From the NCBI GenBank assembly GCA_003697085.1, contig RFFU01000013.1, positions 1-38,146 of the forward strand: a DNA stretch of 38,146 nt. The letters are read 5' to 3'. Below the pieces are notes generated by a model, which saw nothing but the letters and a program-made list of their open reading frames with translations, ran no database searches and had not been told where the DNA came from. Of this stretch, positions 17,177 to 20,831 are shown piece after piece (within the stretch, counting starts at the first letter, position 1; each line of letters opens with the position of its first letter). Source of the DNA: Candidatus Hydrogenedentota bacterium. Lineage in GTDB: Bacteria > UBA8481 > J006. Made by a program: the position numbers and the translations under genes.

Positions 17177-17196
17177 AACGGTTTTAATGTACCGTT
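17177..17196 (-). terminator. Weak candidate terminator at the end of the minus-strand operon
   Basis: AACGGT (17177-17182) and ACCGTT (17191-17196) form a 6-bp stem with an 8-nt loop that overlaps the stop codon of the minus-strand gene. On that strand it is followed by CCCAAATTTT, a weak and late T-run. It could assist termination or be chance. Confidence 0.25.
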
Positions 17197-18403
17197 ACGG
17201 CCTCGGAATTCCCGCAATATCAAGGGGGGACCTTATGAAAACGCTGAAACATCCGTCTTGGAAAGAATGTGTTGGATGACCGTCCGGTTCGAGGATCGTT
17301 ACGGCGGTTGTCATTCCCAGGGCGCGGATCGCCGGAATTCGGCCGCCTGCTCCGTCAGAGCGTTGCACTGGAGCGACATGCCACGTGAATTGATCAAGGT
17401 TCAATCCCCGTCGGGCGAGGTATCTCTTCAAATCGCGGCGGTTTTTCAGCCAGGACATTTGTTTCCCGATCGTCGTGACCGAGGGGCGCCCACCGTCAGG
17501 ATAGAGAACGATCCATTCCACGGGAATTTCGTATTCCAGAGAAAACGGAAATGACAGAGGAGCGAATCCGCGGCGTTTCAGGGCCTTTCGCCATTCGAGC
17601 CTTCTTCCGAAGAGTCGTTGAAATTTTCTCGCCAAGCGGATCTCTCCCGGATAATAGCCGGAGGGATAGAACACGGTCCACGGAGTTGCATTGACACGGT
17701 AGAGGGATCGGGAACCGGAACTTTCGGGAAGATACAGTTCATAACCTTTCGGGAGAACGAGGCGAAGCGATTTCTGTGTGATAGGAAAGAGTTTCTTGAG
17801 CGCGGTTCGTAAGCCGCGGATTCTTCCGGCACCGCAGCCGCGGATCTCGATCACGGCGCCTTTCAAGAAGAGTTCTTCTTCCGCGGGGCGAATTCTACGT
17901 TGCTCGAGCGCTCGTTGCAGTGTCTCCGGCGTCAGGCGTTCCCGAGCCTTAACGACGGGACACCGTAGCCCCGACCAAGGATTTCCGTGCGCGACGATGA
18001 TGAGCCGTCCCACACACGTCCCGTGTTGCCGGTATTCGGAACGAAGGAGCGCGAGGATTTCGCTCAAGGATTGCGCCCGGCGAACGACTCGGAGATTCGC
18101 CCCTCCGAGATCCGCCCGGTGAGCGCGATAATAACGCTCGGCCCGATCGAGATAGGGATTTTTCAATGTCTGATCATCTCCCACGATGAAGACGAAGACA
18201 GCCGTATCGGCCGGTGCGAGTGCCGTGGAAATCTCTGTTTTCCAATTGGTTTTCTGGAGATTCATTTGTGGAGTCCCGGAACCCCATCGAGCCGCGTTCC
18301 CGGCGCCGGCAAGTGCGGAGAAGATGAGGCCGAAGAGTGTTGCTCCGTAGAGAAGGATTCCGCCGAATAGCACGCTGCGAATCGTTTGGGTACGGTATTT
18401 CAC
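17195..18403 (-). CDS. Exported protein with caspase-like His/Cys pair (unknown function)
   Basis: I do not recognise a named family. The 402-residue protein begins with a hydrophobic segment (about 10-34) that reads as a signal peptide or anchor. Residues 132-140 (GRLIIVAHG) and 183-194 (AVIEIRGCGAGR) look like two buried beta strands ending in His139-Gly and Cys190-Gly. That order and spacing is what caspase-fold (clan CD) peptidases use for the catalytic dyad. Downstream is a basic, aromatic-rich region (about 200-330) with no known motif. GTG 18403 overlaps the stop of the VIT/VWA gene (GTGA), so the pair is translationally coupled; a TTG at 18466 is an alternative start. Protein-coding status is clear; peptidase activity is inference. 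Confidence 0.7.
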   Translation of the reverse strand: MKYRTQTIRSVLFGGILLYGATLFGLIFSALAGAGNAARWGSGTPQMNLQKTNWKTEISTALAPADTAVFVFIVGDDQTLKNPYLDRAERYYRAHRADLGGANLRVVRRAQSLSEILALLRSEYRQHGTCVGRLIIVAHGNPWSGLRCPVVKARERLTPETLQRALEQRRIRPAEEELFLKGAVIEIRGCGAGRIRGLRTALKKLFPITQKSLRLVLPKGYELYLPESSGSRSLYRVNATPWTVFYPSGYYPGEIRLARKFQRLFGRRLEWRKALKRRGFAPLSFPFSLEYEIPVEWIVLYPDGGRPSVTTIGKQMSWLKNRRDLKRYLARRGLNLDQFTWHVAPVQRSDGAGGRIPAIRALGMTTAVTILEPDGHPTHSFQDGCFSVFIRSPLDIAGIPRP

Positions 18404-20643
18404 GGGGCGTTCGGGAATCGACCGCCCCCGGTGGGTTTCCCCTTCCCCACCGGTGATCGCCCGCAATAGAAGAGGGCGAGGGTGATAAAGAGGAAGGGAA
18501 AGAGAATAGAGAGGAAAACCGTTGAAGGAGGGAAACTTTCCGAACCGGTCGTTACGATTCCCGCCAGGCCCTCGGCATCAAGGCCGACGGCGAGCGTGCT
18601 GACACCAGAGGGAAGAGGGAGAGGTTGGCGGACCACCTTCCTTCGGCCGCCGGAGTTGACAGCGATCTCATCGATGGCGACGAAGGAGGTGGCTCGGGTG
18701 AGTAGGGAATAGCGAATGCCGAGGTCGGCGATGCGTTCCAGCGTGGTCTGATCGGAGTTCAGGGCATATTCGTCCTCCAATTCGGCGATCCGCGAGCGTG
18801 CCCAGAGAGTCCTTAAAGCGCGGTGCTTTCGGGAACGTTTTCCTTCGGCGATAGGGAAGGTCTTCTCGAAGAGGCGGCTTCCGATTCGTCCCCGAAGGTG
18901 GAGCGCACCGGCGAGGCTCCCGTTCCATTTTCCGAAGACCTCGATCGGTCTTCCCTGAAAGAGATCGGGAATGCGCCTGGGGGAAAACGCGCTGAGTCCT
19001 GCTCCGTCCACTGTGAGCGAAAGGTCCGTGGCGACCGGGTGAGAGACGAGATCGACGAAATCCGCCACCGCCCGGGCGGCAAAGCGGGGATGCGTTACGA
19101 CGAAGGGCTTTCCGCCTCCCGCCCGCGACAGCCCCTCGATCAACGCCCGATTGACGGCGGAGCCGACGCCGAAAGCGAAGAAGTTGCTTCGGTCGAGGTT
19201 TTCGCGTACGAGGCGGAAGGCTTTGTCCTCGACGTTCACGTAGCCGTCCGTGAGAAGAAGGATTGTCCGGGAGAGCCCGGAGTGACGAGGGAGCGCGAAG
19301 GCGTATTCGAGCGCGGAGAGGAGTTCTGTACCTCCGCCTCCGGTTTGGTTTTCGACGAGCGCCAAGGCGCGCCGGAGATTCTCTGGAGTGGCGGGAATCG
19401 GGGAATCAGCGAGTGTCGACGAGGAACCTGCGAAGAGGAGAATGTTGAAGGAGTCGGTGGGCTTGAGCCGGAGAAGAAGGTTGCGAACGACCGCCTTTGA
19501 GATTTCGAGAGGGAATCCATGCATCGAGCCGGAGACGTCAAGAATGAAGAGGAGTTCACGCGGTGGAAGCGTTTTCGTTTCGATTCGCTGCGGGGGTTCA
19601 AGCAAGAGGAGGAAGTATCCGGAGGTATCGGTCGTCGTGTCGATTTCCGTTTGAACGTCCGGGGGGAGAAGGAGGAGGCCGGCCTGCGGTTCCTTGCCGC
19701 GGAGCGAGTATTTCAGGATGAAATCACGGTCGGCCGGATATCCGTTTTTCGGCTTCAAAGTGACTTCACAGGTTGTCGGCTCGGGATAGAGTGTTTCGAT
19801 TTCGTGGGTCGGGGATACAAGCTTCGTTATGGGAATCGGAGAGGAGAGGGTGAGGTGAAAGAGAAATTGAGGGAGGCGGGAATCGGAGGAGTTTTTCAGT
19901 GTCGGATTTGATGTGAAGGCGGAAGGAGTTGCGGAGGAATGTTCCTCGGCCGAGACGTACCGCGGACCGACGACGGTGGGGAAGACGAAGGTGTATTCCT
20001 TGCGGACAAGCGGCACGATTTTATCGTATTGAAGTTCAACCGAGACGTGATCTCCGGGCATAATATTTCCGACGTTGGTCGAGAAGACGTTGGAACGGTG
20101 TTGTTCGAGCAGAGCGGTACGACGCCCCTGCTCTTTCGCGGTTTCGTAGAGGAGTCGCGCGGTTTTCCGCCGTCTCACCTCGGCTCGGATCGTTCGGTTT
20201 CCGATCTTCATCACCATTCCCGTTACGGAGGCGCGGGTCGAGGCGGGAAAGACATACACGGCCTCGATCGGTTCCGTTCCTCGATTTCGATAATCCTGGC
20301 GAACAGTGACGTGTGCGATGACGCCGGCGATTTCGACGCGAACCTCCGTACGCTCGAGCGGGAAGGATTCGATCGAAGAGGAATCGGAGACGAGGAAATA
20401 GGGGCCGACCGGGGTTGTTTCGGCGGCTGAGAGGGGAGAGCCGAAGGAGGGAAAGAGGAGAGTGAGGCAAAAGATAATTGCGAAAGGAGAACGGAATTTT
20501 TTCCCGCCTTCCAAAACGCTGCGCGAGGGAAAGGAGTTTGGTTTCGGCCCGAGTTTCGATCTGTTTGATGAGAAAACGGGGTTTGCGTGCGGGGGGTCTG
20601 ATTGAGCCCCTCCGAGTCGATTTCGATTGGAAAGATCGGGCAT
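18400..20643 (-). CDS. VIT and VWA domain protein, membrane-anchored
   Basis: The 747-residue protein has a VIT domain (about 80-230; SFPLERTEVRVEIAGVIAHV then PIEAVYVFP) followed by a von Willebrand factor A domain with a complete MIDAS: Asp369-x-Ser371-x-Ser373 in ILDVSGSMHG, a Thr at 439, and Asp466 in LLTDGYVN. A hydrophobic segment at 52-73 ending in SAAE looks like a signal peptide, and another near the C terminus (about 702-724) would anchor it. Bacterial VIT/VWA proteins are usually cell-surface or periplasmic, and some are sortase substrates; no LPxTG-like signal or sortase is seen here. ATG 20643 has a perfect AAGGAGG 6 nt upstream, which leaves an odd 50-residue hydrophilic stretch before the signal segment. 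Confidence 0.85.
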   Translation of the reverse strand: MPDLSNRNRLGGAQSDPPHANPVFSSNRSKLGPKPNSFPSRSVLEGGKKFRSPFAIIFCLTLLFPSFGSPLSAAETTPVGPYFLVSDSSSIESFPLERTEVRVEIAGVIAHVTVRQDYRNRGTEPIEAVYVFPASTRASVTGMVMKIGNRTIRAEVRRRKTARLLYETAKEQGRRTALLEQHRSNVFSTNVGNIMPGDHVSVELQYDKIVPLVRKEYTFVFPTVVGPRYVSAEEHSSATPSAFTSNPTLKNSSDSRLPQFLFHLTLSSPIPITKLVSPTHEIETLYPEPTTCEVTLKPKNGYPADRDFILKYSLRGKEPQAGLLLLPPDVQTEIDTTTDTSGYFLLLLEPPQRIETKTLPPRELLFILDVSGSMHGFPLEISKAVVRNLLLRLKPTDSFNILLFAGSSSTLADSPIPATPENLRRALALVENQTGGGGTELLSALEYAFALPRHSGLSRTILLLTDGYVNVEDKAFRLVRENLDRSNFFAFGVGSAVNRALIEGLSRAGGGKPFVVTHPRFAARAVADFVDLVSHPVATDLSLTVDGAGLSAFSPRRIPDLFQGRPIEVFGKWNGSLAGALHLRGRIGSRLFEKTFPIAEGKRSRKHRALRTLWARSRIAELEDEYALNSDQTTLERIADLGIRYSLLTRATSFVAIDEIAVNSGGRRKVVRQPLPLPSGVSTLAVGLDAEGLAGIVTTGSESFPPSTVFLSILFPFLFITLALFYCGRSPVGKGKPTGGGRFPNAP

Positions 20644-20831
20644 TGGATTTCCTCCTTGAGAAAAGAGTTTTCTGGGTGTGAAAGAGGGGAGGCAAGGGAC
20701 GTGCCCGCCGGAAGGAGGGGTGGGGCGCGGAGAAGCCTTTGAAACGGGAAGAGTTACAGAGAAAGAGGCCTCCGCTGCGCCGTGACAGGTGTCAACAGGT
20801 GTTGAGAAAAGGCGACAGGTTGAAGGAGAAG
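20644..20831. promoter_or_regulatory. Divergent intergenic region with phased ACAGGT repeats
   Basis: This region separates the minus-strand VIT/VWA operon from the plus-strand zapB/zapA genes. ACAGGT occurs at 20785-20790, 20795-20800 and 20815-20820, so the copies are 10 and 20 bp apart, on the same face of the helix. The first two sit in longer matching units (ACAGGTGT). This layout is typical of a cooperative transcription-factor site, but no strong -35/-10 pair was found on either strand. Confidence 0.4.

Follow-up and report, generated by a model that had tools for sequence, protein, structure and literature searches.

Two overlapping genes on the minus strand of a window from a Candidatus Hydrogenedentota bacterium (contig RFFU01000013.1, the whole stretch of 38,146 nucleotides that was analysed) encode a protein with VIT and von Willebrand factor A (VWA) domains and a 402-residue protein with a conserved histidine and cysteine. 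We propose, with a probability of about 0.5, that the two proteins form a cell-envelope module made up of an enzyme and its dedicated partner, in which the second protein acts as a His-Cys peptidase on its VIT/VWA partner in the manner of a class GN sortase. The two genes are paired in most loci, co-occur in genomes and have fused repeatedly, their histidine and cysteine are kept or lost together, and the genomes checked contain no sortase. If the proposal is correct, the enzyme would have a caspase-type fold, and its partner would be a substrate with a cleavage site of its own. An earlier note, made from the sequence of the window alone, had described the pair as a VIT/VWA protein coupled to a caspase-like exported protein, and both open reading frames were confirmed, at 17195-18403 and 18400-20643.

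A scan of GTDB genome contigs recovered one homologue of the caspase-like protein, L003, from a Flavobacteriaceae metagenome-assembled genome (24% identity over residues 17-382, E 9e-28), and this homologue is directly preceded by a VIT/VWA gene. With L003 as the anchor, homologues were found in 19 of 397 genomes of Flavobacteriaceae and in 51 of 199 genomes of a second Bacteroidota family, and a Bacteroidota-wide sample added two more. The family set used throughout comprises 64 members, the window's copy and 63 homologues read with their flanks, nearly all of them from these two families. A domain-wide sample of 386 genomes yielded only the window's own genome and one weak partial match, the only other genome of the window's phylum in the collection had no homologue, and none was found on plasmids, phages or viral contigs. 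Because of the L003 match and the 63 homologues, we could rule out that the 402-residue frame is a chance open reading frame. The His/Cys domain was also seen in two other settings. Genome G968 encodes a 1130-residue protein (L055:6258-9650) that has a metallopeptidase-like HELTH motif in its N-terminal part and, internally, a domain with the histidine and cysteine that matches the profile of the caspase-like family (VLIAHGN, VIIRGCRIG), and G043 encodes a stand-alone protein of 255 residues (L056:6806-7573) with the same domain (HIMSHG, LIFSSCEVG), no apparent export signal and a position that is not beside a VIT/VWA gene.

A VIT/VWA gene lies upstream on the same strand in 51 of the 59 copies that carry both residues, five of which are single-frame fusions, and the pairing is kept across phyla; a survey of this kind had been set in advance as a test of the idea. 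The two genes are mostly within 100-200 bases of each other in the second Bacteroidota family and within 2.2 kb in Flavobacteriaceae. Many of the Flavobacteriaceae loci have one or two genes for small secreted proteins in between (about 187 residues with no family match, and about 298 residues with an SH3_3 domain; L036:8084-9562 and equivalents in L027-L045). Among the 199 genomes of the second family, with VIT/VWA relatives counted at 500 bits or more, 45 had both genes, 6 only the caspase-like gene, 4 only the VIT/VWA gene and 144 neither (Fisher test, 3e-33). One of the six caspase-like-only cases is cut by a contig end and the four VIT/VWA-only cases are lower-scoring variants. Since the genomes are related to one another and many of them are incomplete, the co-occurrence counts as strong, though not as independent, evidence. 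In most Flavobacteriaceae loci, and in some of those of the second family, two fused ones among them, the module is followed downstream by genes for a LytTR regulator and a Reg_prop histidine kinase.

In five genomes (L121, L134, L136, L142 and L149) both proteins are encoded by one open frame of 1031-1072 residues, and on the tree the switch between fused and separate states must have happened at least twice. The fused chain runs from a signal peptide through the VIT domain, the VWA domain, a transmembrane helix, a short basic loop and a second transmembrane or lipobox-like segment to the caspase-like domain. Under the positive-inside rule, such a topology would put the functional domains of both proteins on the outer side of the inner membrane. 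The window's pair follows the same plan in two genes, with a VIT/VWA protein that ends in a transmembrane helix and a basic tail and a caspase-like protein whose basic N-terminus is followed by a transmembrane helix. Bacteroidota homologues of the latter have a signal peptide, in many cases with a lipobox cysteine. Rather than to the surface exposure or adhesion suggested in the earlier note, the fused members and the C-terminal membrane segments point to a location of both proteins on the outer side of the inner membrane or, in many Bacteroidota, to lipoproteins.

The histidine and cysteine behave as a unit. Both are kept in 59 of the 64 aligned sequences and both are absent from five, while no copy lacks only one of them. 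The dyad-less copies have Glu/Pro (L026), Lys/Ser (L037, and likewise L039 and L040) or Asn/Ala (L043) at the two positions. A tree for the dyad state, built without the columns of the His and Cys motifs, requires at least two changes of state, on its starred branches. None of the five dyad-less loci has a VIT/VWA gene nearby. Two of the five are second copies, each accompanied in its genome by a copy that has the dyad and a linked VIT/VWA gene. For the remaining three no other copy was found in the genome (G229, G211 and G408); these genomes contain no VIT domain at all, and every genome with a dyad-bearing copy in the same test has one. L026 shares flanking genes on both sides with L003 and is without both the VIT/VWA gene and the two residues. 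Counted by locus, the dyad is associated with VIT/VWA linkage at p 1.7e-4 (4e-5 when contig-end loci are left out; Fisher test), although the loci cannot be treated as independent and the support from the tree is for two loss events rather than five. Homologues lacking either residue had been named beforehand as evidence against a peptidase, and five such homologues do exist; the dyad is nevertheless kept in the rest and lost jointly, and its loss coincides with an absent VIT/VWA partner.

The VIT/VWA protein of the window, 747 residues long, has the VIT domain (Pfam, E 1.9e-33) and the VWA domain (VWA_3, E 5e-17) with a complete metal-binding site that had been read from the sequence. This metal ion-dependent adhesion site (MIDAS) consists of DVSGS at Asp369, GGGGT with Thr439 and TDG with Asp466, and its residues are invariant across 12 VIT/VWA homologues. 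A hydropathy scan found a single hydrophobic segment, residues 704-722, near the C-terminus. Against TIGR03788, the model for marine proteobacterial sortase targets, the protein scores 378.5 bits, under the cut-off of 551.65; it has the VIT and VWA domains, the transmembrane helix and the basic tail of that model, and the LPXTG motif is absent. The motif QPLPLP..V...AVG is conserved among the tails and was considered as a common cleavage motif. It was rejected because a counterpart, PLNLPAGWDFDKVFG, exists in sortase-type proteins, so that it is probably part of the core.

Relatives of the VIT/VWA protein also occur outside the pair. On the Pontibacter sp. G13 plasmid NZ_CP134698.1 (L076:5989-10683), a VIT/VWA domain of this family (41% identity) forms the N-terminal part of a fusion with a SusC/RagA TonB-linked outer-membrane receptor. 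The QPLPLP..V...AVG motif directly precedes the receptor part. This fusion suggests a periplasmic location of the VIT/VWA domain. Second VIT/VWA copies, in open reading frames of about 680-806 residues, lie on other contigs of module-bearing genomes (G1350:C104, G1171:C38, G1303:C22, G1224:C218, G1275:C209 and G1256:C58), and it is possible that they are further clients of the module.

A caspase-like fold of the 402-residue protein is likely, judging from predicted structure and motif order. His139 lies in LIIVAHG after a predicted strand at residues 130-138 and Cys190 in IEIRGCG after a predicted strand at 184-188, in agreement with the earlier description of VAHG and RGCGAG as each following a strand. 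In a low-confidence model the core is arranged as strand-helix-strand-helix-strand(His)-helix-helix-strand(Cys)-helix. The histidine would thus follow strand 3 and the cysteine strand 4, as in clan CD, and the same is seen in the L003 core. Structural alignment of the core by VIA-align gave caspase-3 and caspase-7 as top rows at Z 6.6 (caspase-3, root-mean-square deviation 4.2 over 114 aligned residues) with receiver domains tying at Z 6.3, although values below 8 can arise from a common arrangement, at chance level.

That limit on the alignment scores is one of several points that weigh against the peptidase proposal. The AlphaFold model of the full-length protein from a single sequence has a predicted local distance difference test (pLDDT) score of 42, and the core model, built from two sequences (the L003 core and the window core), has a mean of 55. 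When the full-length model was aligned, dehydroquinase, binding proteins and receiver domains outranked caspases. No Pfam peptidase family of clan CD matched any of 22 members. DUF4347 (PF14252) matched 14 of the 22 weakly (best E 5e-4), with L036 scoring 17.0 bits, below the gathering cut-off of 24.6 bits, and no match for the window's protein, and hhalign to two DUF4347 sequences put the histidine and cysteine in register at a non-significant probability of 2.6%. Foldseek gave no PDB match at E 0.001 and no caspase among the first 50 rows, a profile search of PDB sequences with the family alignment gave no match, and the 402-residue protein has no match over Pfam or NCBIfam cut-offs and no significant PDB relative. 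Of the eight dyad-bearing copies without a linked VIT/VWA gene, three are no more than 1.5 kb away from the end of their contig; the loci L028, L120, L124, L127 and L131 have both residues and no such gene nearby, and the L028 genome has one elsewhere. The VIT/VWA tails vary, with a transmembrane helix in some and a domain of about 95 residues in most, and because they differ, the search for a common cleavage motif in them found none. Fusion, finally, is equally compatible with a stable two-subunit enzyme and with an enzyme joined to its substrate.

As we picture the enzyme-and-partner module, the VIT/VWA protein would be exported and held by its C-terminal membrane helix, with the VIT domain and the metal-binding VWA domain in the periplasm, and the cysteine peptidase with its caspase-like core would be held on the same side by its N-terminal helix. 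The peptidase would cut its partner, most likely in the stretch that separates the VWA domain from the C-terminal tail or membrane helix, and the partner would thereby be released, activated or attached elsewhere, a job thought to be done in proteobacteria by the class GN sortase. The downstream sensor kinase and LytTR regulator, frequent in Bacteroidota, probably control the module or read its state. We advance more tentatively, and with some doubt, a narrower idea: that the role of the class GN sortase, as dedicated enzyme for C-terminal processing or transpeptidation of VIT/VWA proteins in the envelope, has passed to an enzyme of caspase fold, enzyme and client sometimes being one chain. 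Another, unrelated type of enzyme would then serve this client family.

The main rival to this module gives the VIT/VWA protein the part of a recognition or regulatory subunit, whose metal-dependent VWA site binds a ligand or envelope protein and presents it to the peptidase in a fixed complex. We consider this somewhat unlikely. The at least two independent single-chain fusions fit a fixed stoichiometric complex, the MIDAS is invariant, and the two-component genes downstream in many loci fit a sensing device. However, the nearest annotated systems name VIT/VWA relatives as the target of the enzyme, with a C-terminal sorting signal, and the loci yielded no other conserved candidate substrate gene common to all of them, the extra secreted genes being confined to part of Flavobacteriaceae.

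It is less probable still that the second protein has no proteolytic function and serves as a sensor or scaffold together with the histidine kinase and LytTR regulator, its histidine and cysteine serving structure, metal binding or redox sensing. No kinase or regulator was seen among the window's tested flanking genes, nor in many other loci. It is also exactly these two residues, placed like those of clan CD peptidases behind strands 3 and 4, that are jointly kept or lost in 64 sequences while the rest is conserved, in step with the presence of the partner. The lack of a peptidase family match nonetheless speaks for such a role, as do the dyad-less copies themselves (L026, L037, L039, L040 and L043), which are conserved and still stand beside the kinase and regulator where VIT/VWA is absent. 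Their persistence there, a further point against a purely catalytic module, suggests that the caspase-like protein has a second, non-catalytic, possibly signalling, role. A conflict or cell-death system, with the VWA protein controlling a caspase effector as in MoxR-vWA ternary systems, is very improbable. VWA domains and caspase effectors do occur together in published bacterial conflict systems (PMC8195603), but both proteins of the pair are exported or membrane-bound, no MoxR-type AAA+ ATPase is present among the window's tested flanking genes, and PADLOC gave one weak match in one family member and nothing more.

Features of the pair are listed in the table. The two genes overlap by four bases, as had been claimed: the GTG start of the 402-residue gene lies on the TGA stop of the VIT/VWA gene. 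Since no clear ribosome site precedes this GTG, translational coupling to the VIT/VWA gene is likely, judging from the sequence. An alternative start, TTG at 18466, would give 423 residues. The pair does stand apart from neighbouring operons, with a D-Tyr-tRNA deacylase (DTD) gene oppositely oriented and the nearest same-strand upstream gene ending about 950 bases away. The tested flanking genes are those for a polyprenyl synthetase, DTD, a GHMP kinase and sugar-nucleotide functions.

Table. Features of the gene pair in the window (feature, position, strand, basis)
VIT/VWA protein gene, 747 residues, exported	18400..20643	-	open reading frame; Pfam VIT 115 bits, VWA_3 63 bits; TIGR03788 378.5 bits
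Shine-Dalgarno AAGGAGG of VIT/VWA gene, shortly before ATG	20651..20657	-	sequence
VIT domain	20026..20358	-	PF08487
VWA domain with complete MIDAS (DVSGS, GGGGT, TDG)	19111..19557	-	PF13768; motif residues invariant
C-terminal transmembrane segment of VIT/VWA protein, then basic tail without LPXTG	18478..18534	-	hydropathy scan and sequence
GTGA start/stop overlap	18400..18403	-	sequence
Caspase-like exported protein gene, 402 residues	17195..18403	-	open reading frame; homologues
N-terminal signal anchor or signal peptide of caspase-like protein	18305..18373	-	sequence; predicted helix 6-36; homologues
Putative core alpha/beta domain with His139 and Cys190	17570..18211	-	alignment and low-confidence model; VIA-align caspase-3/-7 Z 6.6, not decisive; weak DUF4347
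His139 codon, candidate catalytic residue	17987..17989	-	kept in 59/64 family members
Cys190 codon, candidate catalytic residue	17834..17836	-	kept in the same 59/64 family members
Conserved C-terminal domain of caspase-like protein (IPVEW ... FTW ... G.TT)	17279..17536	-	conserved alignment columns

A VIT/VWA protein joined with a caspase-like enzyme in an envelope module looks undescribed. Among open-licence papers we found none on DUF4347 with caspase, or on VIT/VWA with a caspase-like enzyme. We know of no established function for bacterial VIT/VWA proteins, nor of an obvious enzyme that would process them in those bacteria that have no sortase. A conserved His-Cys family, fused to the partner in some genomes and with natural dyad-bearing and dyad-less copies now offers a testable enzyme and its probable substrate. 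If the proposal is true, a caspase-type enzyme would join the proteases acting on proteins of the envelope, and the family, which is unnamed in Pfam, NCBIfam and PADLOC, would gain an annotation.

Several known systems resemble the pair in part. The MoxR-vWA ternary systems (PMC8195603) likewise have VWA and caspase-type domains in one system, whereas the present proteins are exported and a VIT domain is added. DUF4347 has the histidine and cysteine in register (LHIIAHGCPG ... ALYGCQVA), but the matches seen sit in open frames of 1000-3482 residues that are not beside VIT/VWA genes. With clan CD (caspases, orthocaspases or metacaspases, gingipains and PorU) the family shares a hydrophobic strand followed by the histidine (HG or HS), a next strand followed by the cysteine (GC or SC) and the predicted alpha/beta order; it differs in having no Pfam family match, an extra conserved C-terminal domain, export and the tie to VIT/VWA. 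A survey of prokaryotic caspase homologues has no mention of VWA, vault or von Willebrand (PMC3501461).

The closest comparison is with the class GN sortase systems of proteobacteria. Their VIT/VWA protein, annotated as 'marine proteobacterial sortase target protein' (TIGR03788), is homologous (30% identity between the window and Phyllobacterium), and the enzyme gene lies directly downstream, with a four-base overlap in Novosphingobium and Rhizobium and a short gap in Phyllobacterium. The proteobacterial relatives (L077-L079) end with LPQTA or LPQTG, a transmembrane helix and a basic tail, whereas the window's protein has no LPXTG. NCBI models also tie VIT proteins to exosortase XrtN in Bacteroidota and include a dedicated kinase/regulator pair in class GN sortase systems. 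The caspase-like enzyme is unrelated to sortases, with no sortase family match in Pfam or NCBIfam, and no sortase gene (PF04203) was found in 23 tested genomes, including the window's, which is 94.6% complete. The usual pairing of VIT/VWA proteins with sortases, invoked in the earlier note, has thus proved the apt comparison: by gene order, the caspase-like gene appears to occupy the place that the class GN sortase holds in the related proteobacterial systems.

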